From IMG/VR virus record IMGVR_UViG_3300031754_000006, positions 1-57,992 of that record: a stretch of DNA of 57,992 nucleotides; one strand, written 5' to 3'. This DNA comes from a virus. This document shows positions 4,804 to 31,940 of this stretch, piece after piece. The first letter of the stretch is position 1; every line of letters begins with the position of its first letter. The notes beneath the pieces are model-generated. The model was not told the DNA's origin. It worked only from the letters and a program-made list of their open reading frames with translations, and searched no databases. Both the position numbers and the translations under genes were made by a program.

Positions 4804-6075
4804 TTAGTTGGAGAGCTGCACGACTGCGTTATGGCCCGGAGAGTCCGAGACCATCATCCCGTATCCACCGATACGGATCTGCGTCGCGTCGTTCGACGGG
4901 TCACGTAGCTCCGTCATCCCGTCCAGCTCAGTCAGAATATGCGGCAGCGGCTTCATGGAGCCCAACGTCCAGCTGTCCGGGTCGAGCAGATAGATCAGCT
5001 TTCCGGGGCAGGAACGGTCCGCGAAGATGTTGATCTCTTCGTCCGCACCGTGAATGCGAATACCAGCGAACCCGATACCCGGCACATCGTCGTGCTCGTA
5101 GTTCACATATTCACGCTTCGAGCCAAGGGCCTTCTCCAGGGCGGCAAAGCTGGTGTGGTTGGTGATCGCCAGCTCCGGGTTACCGTCTTCACGGGCAACC
5201 AGGGCAGCCGCATCGATAATCGCCTCCTCAATGCTCTGCGCCGTCCCGTTCCACCGGATACCCGCCAGACGCGTCGGATCTGGAGACCTGTCCACGCCGT
5301 TGAACGCATCACCCGACGTCGGAGCAGTGAGCGGCAGCCAATCCTGGAGTCCGTTGATCGCCAGGTTGTTATCACCAGCCACACGGAAGAACAGCGTACC
5401 CGTCCAGCTGGTAGGCGTACCGGCCGATCCGGTGTACCCAGTAGCGCTCACCGTGACCGTGCTGGCCGCGCGGTCAACCGAGATCACGTAACCGTAGTTA
5501 GGCGAACCGATCGCCGAACCACCGTCCGTCGCTGCCGCCTCCAGCTTCTGCCCCTTCTCAAACTGCGTCACGGACAGCGGGTCCGAAAGGACGATCACGC
5601 CTGAGGTAATGGTCGCAGTCGTCTTCCCGATCGTGCCCGTGGAGCTGCGGAACAGTGCTCCAGCCCAACGGTTCTCAGCGGTCTTCATCCCGCCGTTCAT
5701 TTCCCGTTGGATCGCCTTCAGGAACGCGCCCGAATCGTTGCGGCTGGCCAGCTGCACCAGGTTAGTGATCGTGACCACCGCGTAGTCCTGCACCCACGGC
5801 ATGAAGAACTTGATGCCGGAGCTGGCAGTGATCTGCGCCAGCGCATTGGTGAAGTTGTGCGACGCCCCCTGCGGGTTGCCGTACACCACCGGGATCGGCA
5901 CGATCTCACCGGCCCAATCCTCCTCCTTGTGGATCATCGCCAGCCACTTATTGCGGCGATAAACCATGACCTTCACTTGCTGCGGGCCGTAATATTCCTT
6001 GAGAATGAACTGCAGCGCTGTGGCATTGCTTAGCCCCGACGCGTCCGGAAATGTATAAGACGGGAAAGTAGACAC
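4804..6075 (-). CDS. Major capsid protein (HK97-like fold)
   Basis: 423 aa, GTG start with GAGGTG 7 nt upstream. Features fitting a coat subunit: N-terminal arm, a basic helix (YYGPQQVKVMVYRRNKWLAM), a central segment (QLASRNDSGAFLKAIQREM) and a C-terminal domain including IFADRSCPGKLIYLLDPDSW and MTELRDPSNDATQIRIGGY. These resemble coats of podovirus-like phages. The order portal, scaffold, coat agrees. There is no N-terminal protease-processed extension and no separate prohead protease nearby, so maturation cleavage is not indicated. Confidence 0.85.
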   Translation of the reverse strand: MSTFPSYTFPDASGLSNATALQFILKEYYGPQQVKVMVYRRNKWLAMIHKEEDWAGEIVPIPVVYGNPQGASHNFTNALAQITASSGIKFFMPWVQDYAVVTITNLVQLASRNDSGAFLKAIQREMNGGMKTAENRWAGALFRSSTGTIGKTTATITSGVIVLSDPLSVTQFEKGQKLEAAATDGGSAIGSPNYGYVISVDRAASTVTVSATGYTGSAGTPTSWTGTLFFRVAGDNNLAINGLQDWLPLTAPTSGDAFNGVDRSPDPTRLAGIRWNGTAQSIEEAIIDAAALVAREDGNPELAITNHTSFAALEKALGSKREYVNYEHDDVPGIGFAGIRIHGADEEINIFADRSCPGKLIYLLDPDSWTLGSMKPLPHILTELDGMTELRDPSNDATQIRIGGYGMMVSDSPGHNAVVQLSN

Positions 6076-14859: not shown

Positions 14860-14895
14860 GCCCCTTACACATGTGCAGTACCATATGTAAGGGGC
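14860..14895 (-). other. Long hairpin at the 3' end of array 1
   Basis: A 10-bp perfect stem (GCCCCTTACA/TGTAAGGGGC) with a 16-nt loop. It follows the last pentamer of the array in the direction of transcription. On the minus strand CTTTAC follows the stem, a sequence also seen after the hairpin that follows array 2. It could be a terminator with a poor T tract, an RNA end-protecting structure or a processing site. Confidence 0.55.
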
Positions 14896-15295
14896 GCCTT
14901 GCTTTACTCGCCCTTGCACGTCCGCTCCGGGCCTTGCCTGCCTTGCCCATCCCCGCTTTACCACCCCTGACCTTGCCTGACCTCACCTGACCTTGCCTGC
15001 TGCGTTTAGCCTGTCCCTACCAAGCCAACCCAAGCCGGGCCAAGCCTGCTCTGCTACGCCTGTCCTTGCCCCTCCAGACCTTTCCTTACGCTGCCTGCCT
15101 TGCCTGCACTACCACGCCGATCCATGCCTAGCCGATCCGCGCCTTGCCTGCTCTGCCGTCCCGAGTTTGGCCGTTCCATTCTCGGCTCTGCCTGCATTGC
15201 CAGCCCTGTCCAAGCCTCTCCACTCACAGCCTCGCCTGCTTAGCCCAGCCTATCCGTACCTAACCGATCTCGACTTTGCCTGCCTTGCCCCACTG
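14896..15295 (-). repeat. Degenerate pentamer array 1 (NNNGG units with GCAGG hinges)
   Basis: About 400 nt without a gene. On the minus strand the sequence is a run of pentamers ending in GG. GCAGG occurs nine times, preceded by a 4-nt spacer (CTAA, CAAT, CAGA, CAAG and similar). In plus coordinates the hinges (CCTGC) are at 14937, 14996, 15045, 15094, 15103, 15147, 15191, 15235 and 15279. Distances are 59, 49, 49, 9, 44, 44, 44, 44, every one 5n+4. It begins right after the stop of the DUF433 gene and ends at a hairpin. Period 5 and stops in all frames exclude a protein-coding reading. Function unknown. Confidence 0.9.
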
Positions 15296-15502
15296 CTAGG
15301 GCTCACGGATCATCTGCATGGTTGTCCACGCTGCCAGTGAGCCTTCTATGTCTTCACGCGTCAGAGCCGGGTAATCCTCTAGGAGGGTTTCTATCGACTC
15401 TCCCTTGCGAAGCCTCCTGGCCACAAACTCCAAATGGATACGGGTCCCCTCAAAGACTGGCTCACCTCCCTGCACCTTCGGATTACATACTATCGCCTTC
15501 AT
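15296..15502 (-). CDS. DUF433-family antitoxin-like protein
   Basis: 68 aa, full length for the family. KVQGGEPVFEGTRIHLEFV and the C-terminal LTREDIEGSLAAWTTMQ helix are the signature of the DUF433 (VapB45-like) fold, a small winged helix-turn-helix usually paired with a PIN toxin. No PIN gene is next to it, so it is an orphan and may act as a regulator. Its stop codon forms the first bases of the array-1 leader. Confidence 0.75.
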   Translation of the reverse strand: MKAIVCNPKVQGGEPVFEGTRIHLEFVARRLRKGESIETLLEDYPALTREDIEGSLAAWTTMQMIREP

Positions 15503-15873
15503 TCGGTGTCTCCCAATTCCTCGATTGTTATCTCAGTGCGAGATGTTCCAGTAAATTTACCTCCTGGCCCATACTGTACGATCCAACGATCGTCTGTCCA
15601 AATAATACCGTTTAAGGCATCTTCCACGATCTTAATTAAGTTACTGAGATCCCCGAAATGTGGATGCCATGTGTCTAAGTCCATCCGATAGAATCTGGCA
15701 GTGAGGCGGAACGGTACGGCTTTGGCTGGCCCTCGGACTCCTGCATTTCTAGCCGCTGCCCTTACCCTGTCCATGAATATAGCAGCGAGGGGGTCTGTAT
15801 AGCTGTGCCTTGGTGCCCGTCGGGCGCGCTTCCATGGAATCGGTACTCCAGGCACAGTAAATGCGATTACCAT
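15499..15873 (-). CDS. rusA: RusA-family Holliday junction resolvase
   Basis: 124 aa, normal length. Has the N-terminal TVPGVPIPWKRARRA, the acidic DLDTWHPHFGDLSNLIKIVE active-site region and ALNGIIWTDDRWIVQ, the signature RusA order. It cuts four-way junctions during phage recombination or before packaging. The start overlaps the stop of the two-TM microprotein upstream, and its stop overlaps the DUF433 start. Confidence 0.88.
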   Translation of the reverse strand: MVIAFTVPGVPIPWKRARRAPRHSYTDPLAAIFMDRVRAAARNAGVRGPAKAVPFRLTARFYRMDLDTWHPHFGDLSNLIKIVEDALNGIIWTDDRWIVQYGPGGKFTGTSRTEITIEELGDTE

Positions 15874-16276: not shown

Positions 16277-16467
16277 TCGGTTCCTCCTTTACCTCTTCCG
16301 CTTGGTATTATCCGACTACAGTTGGCCTTACATATCCACCATTCCTTACTAAGCCTCCGTGATTCTACCGGACGACCTCCACACTCAGGACAGCGCCCCC
16401 GTAGTACCCTCCAGAGCCTACCAACCCAATTGGTTCCGGGCCCCTTCGGCGAGCTGTTTTTAGCCAT
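16264..16467 (-). CDS. Zinc-ribbon microprotein
   Basis: 67 aa from the ATG at 16467 (a GTG one codon earlier is possible). GRCPECGGRPVESRR and ICKANCSR give two Cys pairs of a zinc ribbon, followed by a basic tail. It overlaps the methyltransferase stop (TGATG), so it is translationally coupled. Function unknown, possibly nucleic-acid binding. Confidence 0.6.
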   Translation of the reverse strand: MAKNSSPKGPGTNWVGRLWRVLRGRCPECGGRPVESRRLSKEWWICKANCSRIIPSGRGKGGTEWSG

Positions 16468-17408
16468 CACGCGGTTCCTCCGTTGTAATTCAGCAGCGGC
16501 GCATCACCCAAGATCCTATCACGTGCCATGGTCGCATATTCTGGGTTTAGCTCGATACCTATAAATGAACGGCCATGACGAGCAGCCACCATCCCTACAG
16601 TACCCGTGCCTGCGAAGGGGTCCAATACCATGGAGCCGGGCGCAGATCCTGCTAGGACACAGCGCTCTGCTAAGTCCCAAGGCATGGTAGCGAAGTGGGC
16701 GCCTGCGAATGGCTTAGCCGTTATCGTCCAGACGCTGCGCGCGTTGCGGCTCTCCTTAACCTCTGTGTCGTGCTGAGTGAACCCAAATGCGGTAGCACCA
16801 TAATCCCCCTTAGCTCCATTCTTGGCCGTATCCGGATCCGTTGCATAAACGATCCGGCCTGCATGTAACGATGGCTCCATGATCGCATCCGCGTCATAGA
16901 AGTAGGTTGCTGACTTAGTCAGTAGGAACACATATTCATGGGCCTTAGTTGGGCGGTCGGTGACTGATTCAGGCATCGGATTAGGCTTGTGCCAAATCAC
17001 ATCCGAGCGCAGCCACCATCCATCAGCCTGTAGCGCAAGAGCCACGCGCCAAGGGATACCGATCAAATCCTTTGGTTTGATGCCTTCGCCTTGTTTGGTC
17101 GGCAACCCCACCGCTCTATATGCCGTATCTTGTTTTCCGGCCCCACCACTATTAGCCGCCCCCGCATATGAATCCCCAAGGTTAAGCCAGACCACGCCGT
17201 CGGGGCGCAAGATACGCCGCACCTCACGGAATACTTCTACCATCCTGGCTACGTATTCCCCGGGCGTGGATTCCATTCCGAGCTGATCCGCGTGCCCGTA
17301 ATCCCGTAGCCCCCAGTAGGGCGGGCTCGTCACGCAGCACTGCACGACCTCATCGGGTAGAGTGCGCATCACAGCGAGGCAGTCACCTTCCAGGATTTTC
17401 CAGGTCAC
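16467..17408 (-). CDS. Orphan DNA methyltransferase, TSPPY type
   Basis: 313 aa from a GTG at 17408 preceded by AAGGGG; a longer reading would add 77 low-complexity residues and overlap a separate membrane-protein gene. Catalytic motif IV is VTSPPYWGLRDYG near residue 30. The AdoMet motif is DPFAGTGTVGMVAARHG near the C-terminus with FIGIELNPEY after it, the beta-class order. TSPPYW favours N4-cytosine methylation, though N6-adenine cannot be excluded. No restriction partner is adjacent, so protection against host restriction is likely. Confidence 0.85.
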   Translation of the reverse strand: MTWKILEGDCLAVMRTLPDEVVQCCVTSPPYWGLRDYGHADQLGMESTPGEYVARMVEVFREVRRILRPDGVVWLNLGDSYAGAANSGGAGKQDTAYRAVGLPTKQGEGIKPKDLIGIPWRVALALQADGWWLRSDVIWHKPNPMPESVTDRPTKAHEYVFLLTKSATYFYDADAIMEPSLHAGRIVYATDPDTAKNGAKGDYGATAFGFTQHDTEVKESRNARSVWTITAKPFAGAHFATMPWDLAERCVLAGSAPGSMVLDPFAGTGTVGMVAARHGRSFIGIELNPEYATMARDRILGDAPLLNYNGGTA

Positions 17409-17490
17409 GACACCCCTTCTGGAATCGCTCCTAGCGAACGGAAAGGGGTCGCCCTTGCGTTTTCTCCCCTCGGCTGTCCCGGAGTGGCGG

Positions 17491-17685
17491 CTACCACAGC
17501 CACCCCCCTTTTTCACGGGTCTGCACGACCCGACCGAGCACGCCGTAATCGGGGGGCCTTTTCGGGGGCAGCAGTTCCCGGATACGGGCCCGCAGCTTCC
17601 ACGCGGCCAAGCCGGCAGGGAATAGGAATAGCCCGGCAAAGAGCAGGGCCAGGGTCACAGCGCTGCGTAAGCCAGTACCGCGCAT
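17491..17685 (-). CDS. Small single-TM protein
   Basis: 64 aa (or 55 aa from a GTG at 17658 that overlaps the upstream stop). Hydrophobic residues about 9-28 (AVTLALLFAGLFLFPAGLAA) are followed by a basic cytoplasmic-type tail (WKLRARIRELLPPKRPPD). The start is uncertain because no convincing Shine-Dalgarno is close to the ATG. Function unknown. Confidence 0.5.
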   Translation of the reverse strand: MRGTGLRSAVTLALLFAGLFLFPAGLAAWKLRARIRELLPPKRPPDYGVLGRVVQTREKGGWLW

Positions 17686-18618: not shown

Positions 18619-20007
18619 CTAGAACAGTGCCAGCTGATTAACATCCCTTTCGGGCTGCTCTAGACTTCCAATGTCTCGGCTGCGGGGCGCGTTCAGGGCC
18701 AAGTCAATGCGCCGCTCAGCGATGGCCGCGTAACCCGCGTCTCTGTCGATCCCGATGAAGTTGAAGCCGCACCGCACCGCTGCGCATCCGGTAGTGCCCG
18801 ATCCGAGGAACGGATCCAGCACCGTGCCTCCGGATGGCGTGACGAGCTTACAGAGCCATTCCATGAGCGCGATGGGCTTGACGGTCGGATGGACGTTGCG
18901 CGCTCCGCCGTTGCGTCCTGCGCCAGCGCGAGGGGAGTTGGATCCAAGCGTGCCCGGGGGCGTGTCGGTATTGATAACCCCAGGCTCGACATCCCAGAGC
19001 CCCGCGTCCCTCTCTCCACGGCTGGGCTTGGCCACGTAACGGAAGACGGGAAAGAATCGGGAGGCACCGCCGGAGTCGCCACCACCTACGCCAGATCTGG
19101 TGCCATATTTGCCGTAGATGCCAGCAGTGGTATCGCTAGGCGCGTTAGCGCTTGGGATGCCGCTCGTCAGCTCCCCGCTCTGCTCGTTCAGTTCCCGCAC
19201 CGGGCAGCCGCGCATGCACTCGCGACCGCACTCCGGATCATGGGTGAAGATGAGGTTAGGGGGCCAGCGGCCGGCGGAAGGATCCCACCCGGGCGGCAGA
19301 CCGCCACCCACGGAACCGCCGACATATGCATCCTTGGAGAATCCTCGTTCCCCGCCCGATCGCCTGGCGAGCGCCGCTAGGTCTTCACCGGGCGCCGTCC
19401 CTACCCTGCACGCCTCAATGTTCAGCCCCCCCGTCCCGTAGGCGAGCACGTTCGCGGCCACCGTCCCGATGAGCGGGCGCCTGGCGAGCACGATCGGCTC
19501 CCGGGCGGGCTTGAGAGCGGTGCCCCATCCGTCGTAGGCGGTAGCCGGGGCGGTAGCCGGGGCGTGCACGGTGGCGCCCAGGATGGAGTTTCCGCCATGC
19601 GTGCACGCCGAGCCACCGGGACAGGTACCTCCACGCTGTGGCCCGATGACCTGCCGCTCGGCTCCGAGCGCATCATCGATCGCCTTCGAGACGTTCAGGC
19701 TCTTGGGGAAGCCCGAGCCGAACACCCAGTCGATCGAGTCCCGGATCTCGAAGCCCGCATCCTCGATGGCGCACGCCATGCGGTGATATGTCCGCGGGCC
19801 GCCGAAAGCCAAGAGATGGCCTCCAGGCTTGAGCACGCGCAAAACCTCCCGCCACATCTCAACCGAATAAGCGATCCCGCTTGCATCCCAACTCTTGCCC
19901 ATGAATCCAAGTTCATAGGGGGGATCAGTTACTACCGAATCAACTGAGGCATCAGGCATCGCCCTCATAGCCGCGATGCAGTCGGATACGATAATCCGAT
20001 GGCTCAC
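18619..20007 (-). CDS. Orphan DNA methyltransferase, DPPY type
   Basis: 462 aa, GTG start overlapping the upstream stop. Motif IV, VVTDPPYELGFMGKSWD, is near residue 28. The AdoMet motif, TVLDPFLGSGTTGCAAV, followed by FIGIDRDAGYAAIAERRI, is near the C-terminus, the beta-class arrangement typical of N6-adenine enzymes. A Gly-rich insert of roughly 200 residues lies between, containing CGRECMRGCPVRELNEQSGE. HPTVKPIALMEWLCKLV is also typical. No restriction enzyme is nearby. Confidence 0.85.
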   Translation of the reverse strand: MSHRIIVSDCIAAMRAMPDASVDSVVTDPPYELGFMGKSWDASGIAYSVEMWREVLRVLKPGGHLLAFGGPRTYHRMACAIEDAGFEIRDSIDWVFGSGFPKSLNVSKAIDDALGAERQVIGPQRGGTCPGGSACTHGGNSILGATVHAPATAPATAYDGWGTALKPAREPIVLARRPLIGTVAANVLAYGTGGLNIEACRVGTAPGEDLAALARRSGGERGFSKDAYVGGSVGGGLPPGWDPSAGRWPPNLIFTHDPECGRECMRGCPVRELNEQSGELTSGIPSANAPSDTTAGIYGKYGTRSGVGGGDSGGASRFFPVFRYVAKPSRGERDAGLWDVEPGVINTDTPPGTLGSNSPRAGAGRNGGARNVHPTVKPIALMEWLCKLVTPSGGTVLDPFLGSGTTGCAAVRCGFNFIGIDRDAGYAAIAERRIDLALNAPRSRDIGSLEQPERDVNQLALF

Positions 20008-22731: not shown

Positions 22732-22994
22732 AGCTGGAGACCATCCAGGCCATCTGCGAGGTGGCCAACGAAGCCGAGGCCCATGCTGTCCTGGACAGCT
22801 ACTGGAACGACCTCCAGTGCCTCGGGGGCCGTGTGCTGCCCCCTGCCTTTGGCCGCCCTGAGTGGCGAGTGCAAGTCTTCTTCCCGGCCGAGGGCGTGCC
22901 CAAGGAGCTGCCCCTCCCTGCCGGTGTAACCCGCCTCACCATCCCTGCCGCCCTGCGGCGCATCTACGGAATCTTGGAGGTCGTGTGTCCGTGA
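22728..22994 (+). CDS. Hypothetical protein (88 aa)
   Basis: Overlaps the upstream stop by 4 nt. Mixed alpha/beta with a hydrophobic centre (GRPEWRVQVFFPAEGVPKEL). No family recognised. Its end overlaps the start of the first Cys/His microprotein. Confidence 0.5.
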   Translation: MKLETIQAICEVANEAEAHAVLDSYWNDLQCLGGRVLPPAFGRPEWRVQVFFPAEGVPKELPLPAGVTRLTIPAALRRIYGILEVVCP

Positions 22995-23206
22995 GCGAGC
23001 CCAGCAAATTCGATATGTGCGTCTGCGGCTGGACTCGGGTGCAGCACTGCGCCAAGGAGCCCCATCCCTGCTCGCACACGGTCTGTCGCTGTAAGGGATT
23101 CACACTCGCAAAGGGCAGTAATTACGATCTTACCGTCACTGGCGCGGTACGCAATAACCGCGACCTAGAAAATGCATCCTATCACACGCACGGCGGCTAT
23201 CACTAA
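22985..23206 (+). CDS. Cys/His microprotein, paralog 1
   Basis: 73 aa from a GTG at 22985 (GGAGG 4 nt upstream; a GTG at 22991 overlapping the previous stop is an alternative). FDMCVCGWTRVQHCAKEPHP followed by CSHTVCRCKGF gives the pattern C-x-C-G-W-x-R-x-Q-H-C-x4-P-H-x-C-x-H-x2-C-x-C, enough ligands for two zinc ions. Four more members lie at 25776-26870. The C-terminal half is His/Asn-rich and unlike the others. Function unknown. Confidence 0.65.
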   Translation: MSVSEPSKFDMCVCGWTRVQHCAKEPHPCSHTVCRCKGFTLAKGSNYDLTVTGAVRNNRDLENASYHTHGGYH

Positions 23207-23661: not shown

Positions 23662-24369
23662 ATGGCATTCGCAGCTAAGCAAAAGGTCGAGATTACTCCC
23701 CCCAATCTCCAGCTAGTCAAGTTCCGGATCATCGGCACTAGTCCACTCGTCCAAAACAAGTTCAGCAGCCGCGCCCTGGAGGCCATGGCCGCCGATCAGC
23801 GCCTCGGCTCCGCCGCCGTGAAGCGCAAGAAGCGCGAGCCCAAGGACTTCGACCTGGCCGTCAAGGAGGCCACCCACTACGCCGATGCCGGCTGGTGCGG
23901 CCTCCCGGCCTCGGCCTTCCGCACGGGCCTCATCTCCACTTGCCGCCTCCTGGGTTTTCCGATGACTTTGGCCAAATTATCGGTATTTGTCGTCGCCGAT
24001 GGCTACGAGCGCGACAGATTCGGAGTGACGCCACTCGTCCGGATCACCAAGGGCAAGCCCGAGCGCACTGACTTTGCCGTGCGCAACGCCACGGGCGTAG
24101 CCGATATCCGCCCCCGCCCCATGTGGCCCGAAGGCTGGGAGGCGGTCATCTCCATTCGCTTCGACGCTGATCAGTTCACCGTGCAGGACGTGACCAACCT
24201 GCTATCCCGCATGGGCGAGCAGGTGGGGATCGGCGCGGGGCGGCACGACTCCAAGGACTCGGCCGGCATGGGCTGGGGCTGCTTCCGGATCGCCGATACC
24301 GTGGGCGGGGAGGCGCCTACCAAGAAGACCAGGGCGCCCAAGGAAGCAGTACAGGAGGAGGTTGGCTAA
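23662..24369 (+). CDS. Conserved-type phage protein with Gly-rich C-terminal signature
   Basis: 235 aa. Begins with a strand-rich segment (LQLVKFRIIGTSPLVQNKFS). The middle includes GLPASAFRTGLISTCRLLGF. Near the C-terminus is RMGEQVGIGAGRHDSKDSAG followed by MGWGCFRI. The order of a TSPL-type strand, a central helical region and a terminal Gly-rich loop is reminiscent of RAMP/Cas7-like RNA-binding folds, but this is a weak resemblance and no Cas neighbour exists. It is followed directly by the 157-aa gene and array 2. Confidence 0.55.
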   Translation: MAFAAKQKVEITPPNLQLVKFRIIGTSPLVQNKFSSRALEAMAADQRLGSAAVKRKKREPKDFDLAVKEATHYADAGWCGLPASAFRTGLISTCRLLGFPMTLAKLSVFVVADGYERDRFGVTPLVRITKGKPERTDFAVRNATGVADIRPRPMWPEGWEAVISIRFDADQFTVQDVTNLLSRMGEQVGIGAGRHDSKDSAGMGWGCFRIADTVGGEAPTKKTRAPKEAVQEEVG

Positions 24370-24843
24370 ATGCCAAGCGCAGCAGCCAAGCGGCTCAAGC
24401 GGGCCCGTACCCAGTCCATCCATGATGAGCTGGCCAACCTTTACCGATTGCATGGAGGTCTCAAGCCCGACGTGATCGTTGCCTGGGCTAAGAATAACCC
24501 TGCCAGCATCCTGCATTCTAAGTTTACGTGGGATGACAGTGAGGCTGCCAAGTCTTACCGCCTTTGGCAGGCGCGGCAGATTATCACAGAAGTAGAGGTG
24601 CAATACCCGGACGGCCATATACGGCGTGTGTATGTTTCGCCGATGGAGTCTCGCGGCACCCGAGGATATGCGACCTTGGTTGACGTTTTGTCCGATGAGG
24701 AGCGGCGAATTCAATATCTGCAACAGGCATATTCTGAGCTGGAGCGCACCGCCGCAAAATATCAGGACCTTGTGGAATTTGCTGGAGTCCGCAGGGCGAT
24801 TCGGGCTGCCGGCAGGAAACTGCCGAAGGCCAACAAGGAGTAG
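24370..24843 (+). CDS. Hypothetical early phage protein of a recurring family
   Basis: 157 aa, starting directly after the upstream stop. LANLYRLHGGLKPDVIVAWA, HSKFTWDDSEAAKSYRLWQA and DVLSDEERRIQYLQQAYSEL form a helical pattern found in many phage proteins of unknown function. The basic C-terminus (AIRAAGRKLPKANKE) suggests nucleic-acid contact. Its TAG stop is the first codon of the array-2 leader. Confidence 0.6.
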   Translation: MPSAAAKRLKRARTQSIHDELANLYRLHGGLKPDVIVAWAKNNPASILHSKFTWDDSEAAKSYRLWQARQIITEVEVQYPDGHIRRVYVSPMESRGTRGYATLVDVLSDEERRIQYLQQAYSELERTAAKYQDLVEFAGVRRAIRAAGRKLPKANKE

Positions 24844-25680
24844 CAGTAGGGGCAAGGTTGAGCTGCGCAGGCTAGGCGCGGAGAAGTCTGGTGAGGACGA
24901 GTGTGGAGCAGCGCGGTCGGGTTAGGCCAAGCAGGCGAGGAATGGACCGGTAACGAGAGGCAGAGATAAGCATGGCAGGTGGAGCAAGGACGTGTAAAGC
25001 CCGGGGCGGGCTGGCACGGCAGGCTGAACCTGGATAGGGTGGGCGAGGTGTGGTCGAGCCTGGACAAGCAGGCGTAGCATCGTACGGGTCGGCAAGGATA
25101 GGCGAGGCCAAGCAGGCCGGGAGTGGTAAGGCTCGCAAGGGCAGGGCTGCGCTGCGCGCGGAAGAGCAGGCAGAGCTAGGATTTGTACGGCATGGAGAGG
25201 CCCGGAGAAGCAAAGCAGGCAAGGAGCGGTAAGGGTCGGAGCCGTTAGGCAGAGCAGGCTTGGCTCGGGTCGGCTTGGGCAGGGTCGGAGCGGCTGGGCA
25301 ATTCAATGCAGGTTAAGCGTGGTGAAGCAGAGGGAGGCAAGGACTGGAACGGGATGGCTGAGCAATGCAGGCACGGACAGGTGAGGTATGGCACGGCACG
25401 GCACGCTAGGGCAAAGCAGGCACGGACAGGACCGGTAAGGTATGGAGCGGCACGTCGAGGCAAAGCAGGTCGAGCTTGGACCGGGATGGCGCGGTCAGGT
25501 GAAGCGTGGCGGGGCCAGGTCTGGCAGGCGTAGCAAGCAGTAAAGGGCAAGGCCAGGAGTGGACGCGATAGGCCAGGTGCAGCAGGCGCGGATCGGCAAA
25601 GCAGAGTGCGGGTCGGACGAGCACGGCAGGCGCGGATAGGTAAGGAAGAGGTCGGCGAGGGGAAGCACAGCAGGCTAAGG
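24844..25680 (+). repeat. Degenerate pentamer array 2 (NNNGG units with GCAGG hinges)
   Basis: About 840 nt without a gene. Pentamers ending in GG follow one another; the last G is almost invariant. The hinge, a 4-nt spacer (CAAA, CAAT, CACG, CCAA and similar) plus GCAGG, recurs at 24867, 24931, 24975, 25019, 25068, 25112, 25166, 25215, 25254, 25308, 25367, 25416, 25465, 25524, 25582, 25626 and 25670. Intervals are 64, 44, 44, 49, 44, 54, 49, 39, 54, 59, 49, 49, 59, 58, 44, 44: all 5n+4 except 58, which contains a second 4-nt step. Two further GCAGG occurrences (25141, 25279) are not preceded by a spacer. Same architecture and polarity relative to transcription as array 1. Function unknown. 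Confidence 0.9.
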
Positions 25681-25683
25681 AAT

Positions 25684-25709
25684 CCGTCAGCGCAATTGTG
25701 CATTGACGG
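25684..25709. promoter_or_regulatory. Nested palindrome after array 2
   Basis: Outer arms CCGTCA/TGACGG enclose GCGCAATTGTGC, itself a near-perfect palindrome centred on AATT. It lies immediately after the last pentamers and before a longer hairpin. It could be a protein-binding site or part of an RNA 3' structure. Confidence 0.45.
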
Positions 25710-25712
25710 CCA

Positions 25713-25755
25713 GGGGAGTCCGTAAACGACGATATCGCCCCGTAGCGGACTCCCC
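25713..25755 (+). other. Long hairpin at the 3' end of array 2
   Basis: Perfect 10-bp stem GGGGAGTCCG/CGGACTCCCC with a 23-nt loop. GCTTTAC follows the stem; CTTTAC also follows the hairpin after array 1. The next start codon is 20 nt downstream, so it could also shape the leader of the Cys/His microprotein cluster. No T run, so a simple terminator is unlikely. Confidence 0.55.
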
Positions 25756-25775: not shown

Positions 25776-26048
25776 ATGGCAGATAAAAAGCTTACCCCCT
25801 TCGATATGTGCGAGTGCGGTTGGACGCGCGTCCAGCACTGCGCCAGGGCTCCGCATCGGTGTACGCACCCGGGATGCTATTGCGTGGCGTTCAAGCTCTC
25901 TTCTGAGCCTGAACTTGACCGGCTGGATGAAGCCATCCGCACCACAAAGGCCCTGGCGCGGGCGCGGTTCTTTCCTGGGCTCGGACTGCGCGCAGATAGT
26001 ATCGATTACTTCATCAAGTGCGGTATTGAGCCCCTGGAGGAAAGCTAG
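25776..26048 (+). CDS. Cys/His microprotein, paralog 2
   Basis: 90 aa with AGGAAG before the ATG. FDMCECGWTRVQHCARAPHR then CTHPGCYCVAF gives the full C-x-C-G...H-C...H-x-C-x-H-x3-C-x-C pattern (the spacing varies by one residue among the copies). The acidic/helical tail (ELDRLDEAIRTTKALARARF, then FPGLGLRADS) matches the tail of paralog 3 in part. First gene after array 2. Confidence 0.65.
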   Translation: MADKKLTPFDMCECGWTRVQHCARAPHRCTHPGCYCVAFKLSSEPELDRLDEAIRTTKALARARFFPGLGLRADSIDYFIKCGIEPLEES

Positions 26049-26050
26049 CC

Positions 26051-26305
26051 ATGGCCGAAAGCCCATTTGATATGTGTCTCTGTGGCTGGAGCAGGATCCA
26101 GCACTGCGCTACCCCTCCGCATCCCTGCACACATGAGCGCTGTTGGTGTAAGGCATTTTGCTTCGCCCCCAATCACCCCCCCAAAGTTTCGGCTATCAAG
26201 GATGAGATGGATATGGCAGGCGCCAGGTTTTTTGACAGGTTTGGGTTGTACAGCGCTCCAGACGCAAAAACGCTGATCGCGCAAGGATTTACGCCTAAAG
26301 ACTAA
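26051..26305 (+). CDS. Cys/His microprotein, paralog 3
   Basis: 84 aa, GGAGGAAAGC upstream, 2 nt after paralog 2. FDMCLCGWSRIQHCATPPHP and CTHERCWCKAF repeat the family pattern. The tail (DMAGARFFDRFGLYSAPDAK) resembles the tail of paralog 2 (ARFFPGLGLRADS), indicating a duplication of the whole gene. Confidence 0.65.
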   Translation: MAESPFDMCLCGWSRIQHCATPPHPCTHERCWCKAFCFAPNHPPKVSAIKDEMDMAGARFFDRFGLYSAPDAKTLIAQGFTPKD

Positions 26306-26307
26306 TC

Positions 26308-26351
26308 AACTTGCCGCCCCTTTCCCAGGGGGGTGGCCCGGGTGGCAGGTT
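26308..26351 (+). other. RNA hairpin between paralogs 3 and 4
   Basis: AACTTGCCGCCC pairs with GGGTGGCAGGTT over 12 bp if two G-U wobbles are allowed, directly after the stop of paralog 3. A GC-rich inner pairing is also possible. No T run. Probably a processing or stabilising structure. Confidence 0.4.
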
Positions 26352-26404
26352 AATTCCTCCGGATGACGCCTGCTGCCCGGTTTTACCTACGGAGTAACCG
26401 AACG

Positions 26405-26674
26405 ATGAGCAAAGATCGCAAAGACACCGATGACCCGAGGGCATCCGATCTGTGCGCCGTGTGTCTGGGATCAGCCGACAATAACGGCGCCCCCAGGTGG
26501 CGTCACTGCGCCAAGCCTCCCCATAAGTGCAGCGTTTGTGACGTATGCCCAGGATTCCAGTACGGCGGCCGAGCACAGGCTATCCATCGCGCGCGGTGGG
26601 CCGAACACGTAGAGCATTACGTGGAGAAGGGCCATCCCCGCGAACAGGTCGAGTTGGCCATCAAAGGTGAATAA
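26405..26674 (+). CDS. Cys/His microprotein, paralog 4 (divergent)
   Basis: 89 aa; the start at 26405 has CGGAG upstream. DLCAVCLGSADNNGAPRWRH followed by CAKPPHKCSVCDVCPGF keeps the Cys pairs, the HCA-x2-PH core and the terminal Cys pair, with a longer first loop. The C-terminal part is helical (WAEHVEHYVEKGHPREQVEL). Confidence 0.6.
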   Translation: MSKDRKDTDDPRASDLCAVCLGSADNNGAPRWRHCAKPPHKCSVCDVCPGFQYGGRAQAIHRARWAEHVEHYVEKGHPREQVELAIKGE

Positions 26675-26675
26675 C

Positions 26676-26870
26676 ATGCGCCTATCTGAGACCAAGCCGG
26701 AAGACGATCCCGGGCTGGCCATGCCAAAGGGGCAGGAGCCCCACAAAACGGACGTTTGTGAGTGTACCGGCTTTAGGGATGAGCACTGCCTAGAAAAACC
26801 ACATCCGTGTCCTTGTGGCTGTAAGGCATTTAGATTTAGATCGAGATGGATAACCTTTGAAGGTGAGTGA
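26676..26870 (+). CDS. Cys/His microprotein, paralog 5 (divergent)
   Basis: 64 aa from the ATG at 26676 with AAAGGTG upstream. DVCECTGFRDEHCLEKPHPC followed by PCGCKAFRF retains the C-x-C, H-C, P-H-x-C and C-x-C elements in a shorter frame. The acidic N-terminal segment is unrelated to the other members. Confidence 0.6.
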   Translation: MRLSETKPEDDPGLAMPKGQEPHKTDVCECTGFRDEHCLEKPHPCPCGCKAFRFRSRWITFEGE

Positions 26871-27200: not shown

Positions 27201-27745
27201 GTGACGAACAGGCAGCGGCATATGAGGACGACGAGCGGCCCGAGGTTAAGGGCCCGTGGCGCATCCAAAGCCTAGCCGATCTAGATTGGGCCCTGGAGCG
27301 GCTAGGCGCCTTGGAGGCTGAACGGGTAAGCGTCATCGCTCAAGGCGAGGCCGCCTGCAAACGCATCTGGGACCGGGCCGACGTTCTCACCGAACGACTC
27401 GGACGCGGGGCTGCATTCTTCGAGGCCAAGATCGAGGAGTACGCGCAAGGCAATAAAGATGCGCTCCTGGGCGGAGGCAAGCGCAAGAGTCGAGACGTTC
27501 TGTTTGGCCGCGTAGGTTGGCGGGAGCATCCGGGGCATATCCATGTGACCGACGAAGCAGCTTTAAAGAAATGGCTAGCCGCCCAAGAGAATGAATCTCT
27601 TTACCGGACAAAGATCGTCCCGAAGATGTTTGAGCTAAATCAGCTGTATGATGCAGACGGCACTATCCCTCCCGGCTGTGAATACAAGGCCGCCGAGGAC
27701 GTGTTTTACATAGATCCCAAGCCGCTTGAGGAGGAGCCGAAATGA
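27197..27745 (+). CDS. Mu Gam-like host-nuclease inhibitor
   Basis: 182 aa, normal for the family. LADLDWALERLGALEAERVS and the long antiparallel helices around GRGAAFFEAKIEEYAQGNKD, then DVLFGRVGWREHPG and ALKKWLAAQENESLYRTKIV, follow the Mu Gam plan. The family binds double-stranded DNA ends as a Ku-like dimer and blocks exonucleases. It sits just before the ERF annealing gene, as expected for a phage recombination module. Confidence 0.8.
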   Translation: MSDEQAAAYEDDERPEVKGPWRIQSLADLDWALERLGALEAERVSVIAQGEAACKRIWDRADVLTERLGRGAAFFEAKIEEYAQGNKDALLGGGKRKSRDVLFGRVGWREHPGHIHVTDEAALKKWLAAQENESLYRTKIVPKMFELNQLYDADGTIPPGCEYKAAEDVFYIDPKPLEEEPK

Positions 27746-28212
27746 CCCTTGAGCAGTTCATGGAGCGCGTCTCACCCGAGCCCAATACCGGCTGTTGGTT
27801 ATGGACTGCAGCCATGGCGGGGAACGGCTATCCAATGGCTTGGCATGATGGCAAAGTACGGCTTGCTACTAGGATTAGCCTGATGTTGCATGGGCGCGCC
27901 CCAAGGGATGCCAAGGAATGCGCAATGCACCGTTGCGATACACCCCTCTGTGTAAATCCGAGTCATCTGTTTCTTGGTACGCAGCTAGATAACATCCGCG
28001 ACATGGACGCAAAGGGGCGGCGGGGTTACGCGCATGTTTATGGCGAGCGCCAAGGACTGTCGAAACTCACCGAGGCTCAGGTGCGTGAGATCCGCGCTCT
28101 TAGTGCTGCGGGCTGGACGCAAATCGCTCTTGGGCTCAGATATGGCATAGATAATTCAACCGTTGCTCAGATCGTTCATCGCAGGACATGGCGTCACCTT
28201 CCATCGGAGTAA
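27742..28212 (+). CDS. HNH endonuclease with C-terminal helix-turn-helix
   Basis: 156 aa. [12 protein letters not shown] opens the domain; the HNH core is HRCDTPLCVNPSHLFLGTQ with the zinc-binding Cys residues. The C-terminal part (LTEAQVREIRALSAAGWTQI) is a helix-turn-helix of the type found in free-standing homing nucleases. It sits between the Gam-like and ERF genes and may be a mobile insertion. A second relative is at 33559. Confidence 0.8.
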   Translation: MTLEQFMERVSPEPNTGCWLWTAAMAGNGYPMAWHDGKVRLATRISLMLHGRAPRDAKECAMHRCDTPLCVNPSHLFLGTQLDNIRDMDAKGRRGYAHVYGERQGLSKLTEAQVREIRALSAAGWTQIALGLRYGIDNSTVAQIVHRRTWRHLPSE

Positions 28213-31827: not shown

Positions 31828-31901
31828 ACCCATGTAGCTCAACGGTAAAGCCCAGCCCGCCTTCAAGCTGGAGACTGCGGGTTCAAGTCCCGCCGTGGGC
31901 C
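31828..31901 (+). tRNA. tRNA-like gene with an enlarged anticodon loop
   Basis: Acceptor ACCCATG pairs with CGTGGGC except for an A-C mismatch at 1-72. The D-arm region is TAGCTCAACGGTAAAGC and the T-arm GCGGG-TTCAAGT-CCCGC is perfect. The anticodon stem CCAGC/GCTGG encloses ten nucleotides (CCGCCTTCAA) instead of seven, and base 26 seems missing. It resembles bacterial tRNA-Gly elsewhere. The isotype cannot be assigned; TCA and TTC are possible readings. It may be a degenerate or specialised tRNA. Confidence 0.6.
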
Positions 31902-31940
31902 CTTCACACGCAACACGCGGCGCATTTAAGGAGGCACCAA

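Follow-up and report, generated by a model that had tools for sequence, protein, structure and literature searches.

Why should one short word recur on a single strand of a phage genome at intervals that always fall one nucleotide short of a multiple of five? The question is raised by a 57,992-nt stretch of viral DNA (hereafter the window), in which the motif GCAGG, here called the hinge, occurs nine times on the minus strand in what we term array 1. Our answer, which we hold with a probability of roughly 0.9, is that array 1 is a putative vrRNA guide array of a phage VIPR system, in which the units would be separate guides and the hinge their punctuation. VIPR (Viral Interference Programmable Repeat), posted in April 2026 as a proposed CRISPR ancestor, is described in the main text of its report as combining the Vipr protein with vrRNAs of GGY/NN pentamers that read DNA with one skipped base, as acting between phages and as comprising seven types (PMC13142463). 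A literature search for VIPR by name found nothing beyond that report. The system itself is already known; added here are a test of the hinge and a remote array in the same dialect. The grammar, the family of arrays, gene linkage, the predicted fold and the shared dialect were computed here, as were, at the family level, the decoding rule and the hinge boundary.

Register and extent of the two arrays

On the minus strand, 5' to 3', the first bases of the nine hinges lie at 15283, 15239, 15195, 15151, 15107, 15098, 15049, 15000 and 14941. A rerun of the modulo-5 test gave spacings of 44, 44, 44, 44, 9, 49, 49 and 59 nt, all 4 modulo 5 as the initial annotation had stated (8/8; chance 0.2^8=2.6e-6). 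Outside the arrays, GCAGG pairs of the window at spacings of up to 100 nt show no such preference (4/16 on the plus strand, 11/52 on the minus strand). The rule had been said to hold without exception, which is true of array 1 but in the second array (array 2, the putative main vrRNA array; 24843-25679, plus strand, 19 model hinges) literally covers 15 of 18 spacings. Two exceptions measure 25 nt: the GCAGG at 25279 is an ordinary in-phase pentamer, and that at 25141 spans two pentamers according to the model. The third, of 58 nt, resolves into 9+49 via a degenerate GCAAG hinge.

A Viterbi grammar model, whose emission values were set by hand, placed array 1 at 14897-15292 (minus strand), a wider extent than the 14937-15283 under which it had been detected. 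Array 1 scored 205 bits and array 2 392 bits. The window, dinucleotide-shuffled 50 times, reached at most 24.7 bits, and array 1 and array 2, shuffled 200 times each, at most 32.6 and 28.9 bits, which upholds the claim that one grammar is common to both beyond chance. Since the 4-nt step at hinges is built into the model, its own hinge spacings constitute no further test. The model left no off-register base in the 63 + 134 pentamers of the window, compared with 105 per 5,481 and 181 per 3,938 in family samples.

The proposed composition of the unit, a hinge plus a variable count of pentamers, was recovered here and in many related arrays. In transcript order, array 1 carries 2 NN dinucleotides, then 8, 8, 8, 8, 1, 9, 9 and 11 between hinges, then 8; units of the window arrays mostly hold 8-12 NN, slightly short of the published 9-16 repeats. 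Over the whole set (2,052 units) the mode is 9 NN, and a second group of 1-3 NN lies between close hinges, for which reason a double hinge, not a guide, is the likeliest identity of the 9-nt "superunit" in array 1. Nor is 9 nt the minimum, as had been supposed: related arrays contain 4-nt spacings (GCAGGCAGG) at nearly the frequency of 9-nt ones (43 versus 45). The pentamer comparison that had been suggested for detecting an exchange of units between the two arrays was negative: the longest run in common was 3 NN, a length typical of 200 shuffles. Two adjacent array 2 units (25362-25469) are about 80% alike, with a tandem period of 49, a possible local duplication.

A widespread array family linked to vipr

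The grammar, GGC at each 5 nt with two free letters and interspersed 4-nt steps, is widespread in IMG/VR, where CNNGG-type blocks slip by -1 in register at GGC-A-GGC. The pattern GCAGGC..GG(...GG)x4 retrieved at least 120 stretches, and 104/120 among the matches listed contain arrays of at least 60 bits. A stricter pattern applied to a collection of 84,980 species genomes returned 60 stretches, 38 of them with at least 60 bits, including actinobacteria (Mycobacterium szulgai) and MAGs of Planctomycetota and Verrucomicrobia. The spacer of the 4-nt step is A in 338/352 cases among the matches listed, at loci picked by a GCAGG-containing pattern, and in 394/440 cases, counted inside model-found segments, at 80 loci picked by the Vipr protein only.

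Array 2 stands at the end of a gene module. The vipr gene (23662-24369, plus strand) encodes a putative RAMP-fold protein of 235 aa and is followed by a conserved vap-like gene (24370-24843, plus strand; 157 aa, mostly helical; phrog_15946, of unknown function), at whose stop codon array 2 begins. A search for relatives of the vap-like protein with a solved structure found none. Across 143 array loci, of which the window is one, two ORF families occur in 79 loci each and the next commonest in 11; at least one of the two is present in 105 loci, with the nearest array on the same strand in 105/105 and an array start between -40 and +20 nt from the stop of such an ORF in 75/105, all of these locus counts being rough because some "family B" ORFs are vipr in the wrong frame (seen in L042 and L048; L numbers denote fetched loci). 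At 260 fetched loci, 160 match the gene at 23662-24369 and 111 that at 24370-24843, and any other window ORF is matched at 7 at most; as only these two genes recur, the module sits in otherwise dissimilar phages (loci having been chosen by array or Vipr). An array of at least 40 bits lies beside Vipr in 78/80 loci and in 69/79 of a second set in which L264-L284 were retained. At Vipr-centered loci, 194/196 arrays have the orientation of vipr and 175 lie downstream.

The identity of Vipr comes from its family. A profile of 61 sequences, with a glycine-rich loop and invariant G185, G189, R194 and G206, matches PDB 36pp_D, annotated as "SUSP1 Vipr protein" (E=2.6e-13), a match that belongs to the profile and that the window sequence by itself falls short of. 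Because the RAMP-fold family profile matches 36pp, we regard the array 2 module as a VIPR locus. In Foldseek, the AlphaFold2 model of the window protein (pLDDT 90.2) was closest to chains from Csm complexes of type III (best E=4.9e-6, TM about 0.5); a chain named Csm3, 5yjd, also appeared among the matches. In Pfam, PHROGs and PADLOC, vipr has no name (phrog_4652, unknown function; a weak DruF match, E=0.02). The periodicity had first suggested TRAP-like, CsrA-sponge, G-quadruplex, Rho-site and iteron readings, which were set aside once the linked genes and the match to 36pp were known.

Directly after array 2 (25776-26870, plus strand) come genes for several small Cys-rich proteins, and a single such protein is encoded before vipr (22862-23206); three have CxCGWxRxQHCAxxPHxCxHxxCxC in common and two are looser. 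Pfam, PHROG and PADLOC searches with the one at 25776-26048 found no match.

Decoding with one skipped base

Guide reading was examined across the family by cutting arrays of at least 40 bits into inter-hinge NN strings and comparing these with the complete set of fetched loci after masking of the arrays (3.7 Mb). Loci L264-L284, fetched by window-guide patterns, were excluded from the seed and score counts because they match by construction, and a complexity filter and more loci were used, a TC-repeat array in L096 having inflated the unfiltered test. The L096 stretch in question (5650-5714) is array-like, with NN all TC, and matches simple repeats. Exact 7-NN seeds numbered 346 with one skipped base and 155, 156, 151 and 169 with skips of 0, 2, 3 and 4; controls at skip 1 gave 148-219 (six shuffles of NN order), 206 (reversed order) and 137 (flipped letters). 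At scores of at least 16/17/18, skip 1 yielded 39/16/11 distinct guides and skips 0 and 2-6 yielded 8-11/0-2/0-1; at 18 or more the single control guide came from skip 0 and none from skips 2-6. The fetched loci include related copies (such as L022/L088 and L187/L188), an effect that counting distinct guides lessens rather than removes.

The skipped base coincides with codon position 3 in 13/16 of the best matches (score of at least 17; P=1e-4 if independent, an approximate value because each site was assigned the longest ORF covering it, whatever the frame, and a single L310 unit supplies two of the 16). Three of these 16 targets lie in vipr. Ten other best-target ORFs were scanned, and eight have a PHROG match (ParB-like/methyltransferase, ParB-like, Cas4-domain exonuclease, excisionase, integrase, tape measure, major head and a weak DNA-binding regulator) and two have none. 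At scores of at least 16, vipr and vap-like genes receive 8/39 matches and account for 8.4% of the DNA in a data set that is vipr-enriched by design. The L010 guide fits a vipr motif of three phages in which the synonymous skip bases differ, with one NN mismatched in L048. This guide, from a short array (L010:7762-7829), fits the conserved vipr motif DMARVETGQ and is perhaps a generalist anti-VIPR guide.

Decoding with a 1-nt skip is thus supported at the level of the family, not for the guides of the window. For the latter, five units compared with IMG/VR gave 34 matches and no convincing target; the best, V13 to L279 (21/22 nt), falls in no clear gene, and by a rough estimate chance allows it.

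The hinge as a probable guide boundary

If guides ran through the hinge, about 150 straddling matches would be expected at the true spacing, by arithmetic from the seed counts. The 2,481 seeds that straddle a hinge showed no enrichment at any scorable spacing from -1 to 8 (45-72 matches; skip-2 control, 41-75), and because of this the 5n+4 hinge acts like a boundary between guides. Past the hinge, nine comparisons, each covering 30-40 letters, gave matching fractions of 0.10-0.41, roughly chance, with two slightly above it (14/34 and 13/32). Among 36 good matches with a mapped upstream hinge, 20 start at the first NN and 10 at the second, which alone proves little because control skips also often begin at 0. 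The 5n+4 spacing seems, then, to mark the end of one guide and the start of the next.

The most serious competitor to this interpretation is that vrRNAs overlap, the mature RNA passing the hinge, whose sole effect would be to offset overlapping guides in register. Arrays of this kind are named in PMC13142463 ("staggered arrays with overlapping vrRNAs"), and the hinge CA likewise fits the L010 targets; target matches nevertheless stop at hinges, both in the past-hinge letters and in the unenriched straddling seeds. We give overlap a substantial chance, somewhat short of even, since the straddling test addresses pairing rather than RNA ends and the RNA itself may still overlap. Overlap is compatible with most of our reading of array 1 as a punctuated guide array.

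Under that reading, the minus-strand transcript of array 1 would be a string of guides. In each of them a conserved G-rich scaffold, here HNNRG, would recur every 5 nt and be gripped by Vipr subunits, and each pentamer would base-pair with DNA through its two NN letters, with a single target base left out between successive dinucleotides. The GGC-A-GGC hinge would shift the 5-nt register by -1, and the inter-hinge unit would be a separate guide because such a shift stops the Vipr filament and the guide from continuing in phase. Strong hairpins follow each whole array, and none lies inside the arrays at unit ends. Directly 3' of array 1 is a hairpin with a 14-bp stem, then UUUAC (14860-14895, minus strand; -25.9 kcal/mol, z -5.2), and directly 3' of array 2 are two hairpins, the second then followed by GCUUUAC (25679-25755, plus strand; -39.8 kcal/mol, z -5.0).

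A remote array in the dialect of array 2

Array 1 and vipr are 8.4 kb apart and on opposite strands. Such an arrangement is rare (in flanks not exceeding 10 kb, 4/196 arrays are more than 2.5 kb off or oriented against vipr), and a search of the window with Vipr relatives found no significant second vipr-like place. The array begins 3 nt past the stop codon of a DUF433 gene (15296-15502, minus strand; Pfam PF04255, 63.7 bits, cut-off 23.6), upstream of which is a codirectional gene for a RusA-like resolvase (15499-15873, minus strand; PF05866, phrog_140). Scans near array 1 gave no terminator-like site and one promoter-like match, not above shuffles. Two neighboring DNA methyltransferase genes (16467-17639 and 18619-20007, minus strand; phrog_67) are close by.

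What connects the two arrays is their dialect. Window repeats follow HNNRG and depart from YNNGG, with Y at 0.64-0.67, G at position 4 at 0.74-0.79 and G at position 5 at 0.96-0.97. A occupies position 1 at 0.25 in either array and position 4 at 0.16 in array 1 and 0.19 in array 2, compared with medians of 0.04 and 0.00 over 322 arrays of at least 20 pentamers. Only the two window arrays of these 322 combine A of at least 0.2 at position 1 with at least 0.1 at position 4. As HNNRG is common to both and found in none of the 320 others, the sequences suggest a single reader, one Vipr lineage serving both arrays. Array 1 would be transcribed and processed, and its RNA would probably be bound and served in trans by the Vipr of array 2.

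A remote location, the opposite strand and more A than usual at positions 1 and 4 are also what a dead or decaying relic, unread by any Vipr, might display. We consider this improbable: the window pentamers hold no off-register base, a strong hairpin follows array 1, and the same drift is seen in array 2, with position-4 A raised as well in the close Vipr relatives L184, L186, L187 and L188 (not L185; L187 and L188 appear to hold one and the same array). A protein-coding, structural or simple-repeat feature, or chance, is very improbable, for although most of array 1 is covered by a 115-aa plus-strand ORF, a 5-nt repeat does not stay in frame, shuffle scores never come near those of the real arrays, and the Vipr linkage and the decoding contradict all four.

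Relation to known systems

The window shares with VIPR a phage-borne RAMP protein, a short neighboring gene and arrays of GGY/NN pentamers and, at the family level rather than for its own guides, 1-nt-skip decoding, a wobble bias and targets in other phages, vipr genes included. Among the defining features of VIPR, a Vipr with a glycine-rich loop is found here by the 61-sequence profile, not by the single sequence; the 9-16 YNNGG repeats are present in window DNA with a relaxed consensus and slightly short units; and carriage by a phage or provirus is indicated by terminase, portal, major head and baseplate hub matches in this virus record. Other defining features of VIPR are an adjacent accessory gene (vap1-6), a conserved structured 3' tail behind the repeats, and a vrRNA that is expressed and co-purifies with Vipr. 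BLAST against a phage collection gave no match for a window half and one protein, and two 27-base matches (E=0.8) for array 2. VIPR type II has separate tailed vrRNAs, whereas here a continuous array is punctuated by GGC-A-GGC; the relaxed HNNRG dialect and the presence of a second array, remote (8.4 kb) and in the opposite orientation, are further differences.

In type III CRISPR-Cas, the Csm backbone forms a filament along the guide RNA that leaves positions periodically unpaired, to which Vipr can be likened. The RAMP fold with its G-rich loop is a feature in common with class 1 CRISPR-Cas, where the period is 6 nt instead of the 5 nt seen here. The window has no array of near-identical repeats, and no Cas match was found among seven of its proteins in Pfam and five in PADLOC. 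TIGR-Tas also comprises an array of guide units and occurs in phages, as here, but has a different protein and contiguous spacers.

By analogy with the function reported for VIPR (PMC13142463), array 1 may contribute to silencing rival mobile elements. The main text of that report describes hammerhead-interspersed and single-vrRNA kinds as confirmed by sequencing, and in it we found neither the word "hinge" nor a -1 rule. If its "staggered arrays" are punctuated arrays, which is our assumption, these lie outside the kinds that its main text presents as confirmed by RNA sequencing. We give even odds to a broader proposal, namely that the GGC-A-GGC slip is a general punctuation code of such arrays, breaking the Vipr register so that one transcript carries many independent guides, and that the dialect co-evolves with Vipr, so that one Vipr serves distant arrays. 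A start and stop rule for guides would let anyone decode punctuated arrays into targets, and the hinge rule offers a concrete test of how a RAMP filament of 5-nt pitch ends.

Some minor observations concern the wider data set and the rest of the window. The array at L172:2225-2568 (Cohnella rhizosphaerae) packs 25 model hinges into 344 nt, a density well beyond that of guide arrays, and is perhaps something else. An Rfam scan matched tRNA solely; a tRNA-like gene lies at 31828-31902 (plus strand), its anticodon call undetermined. The protein encoded at 27742-28212 (plus strand) resembles, in its motif, an HNH-type endonuclease.
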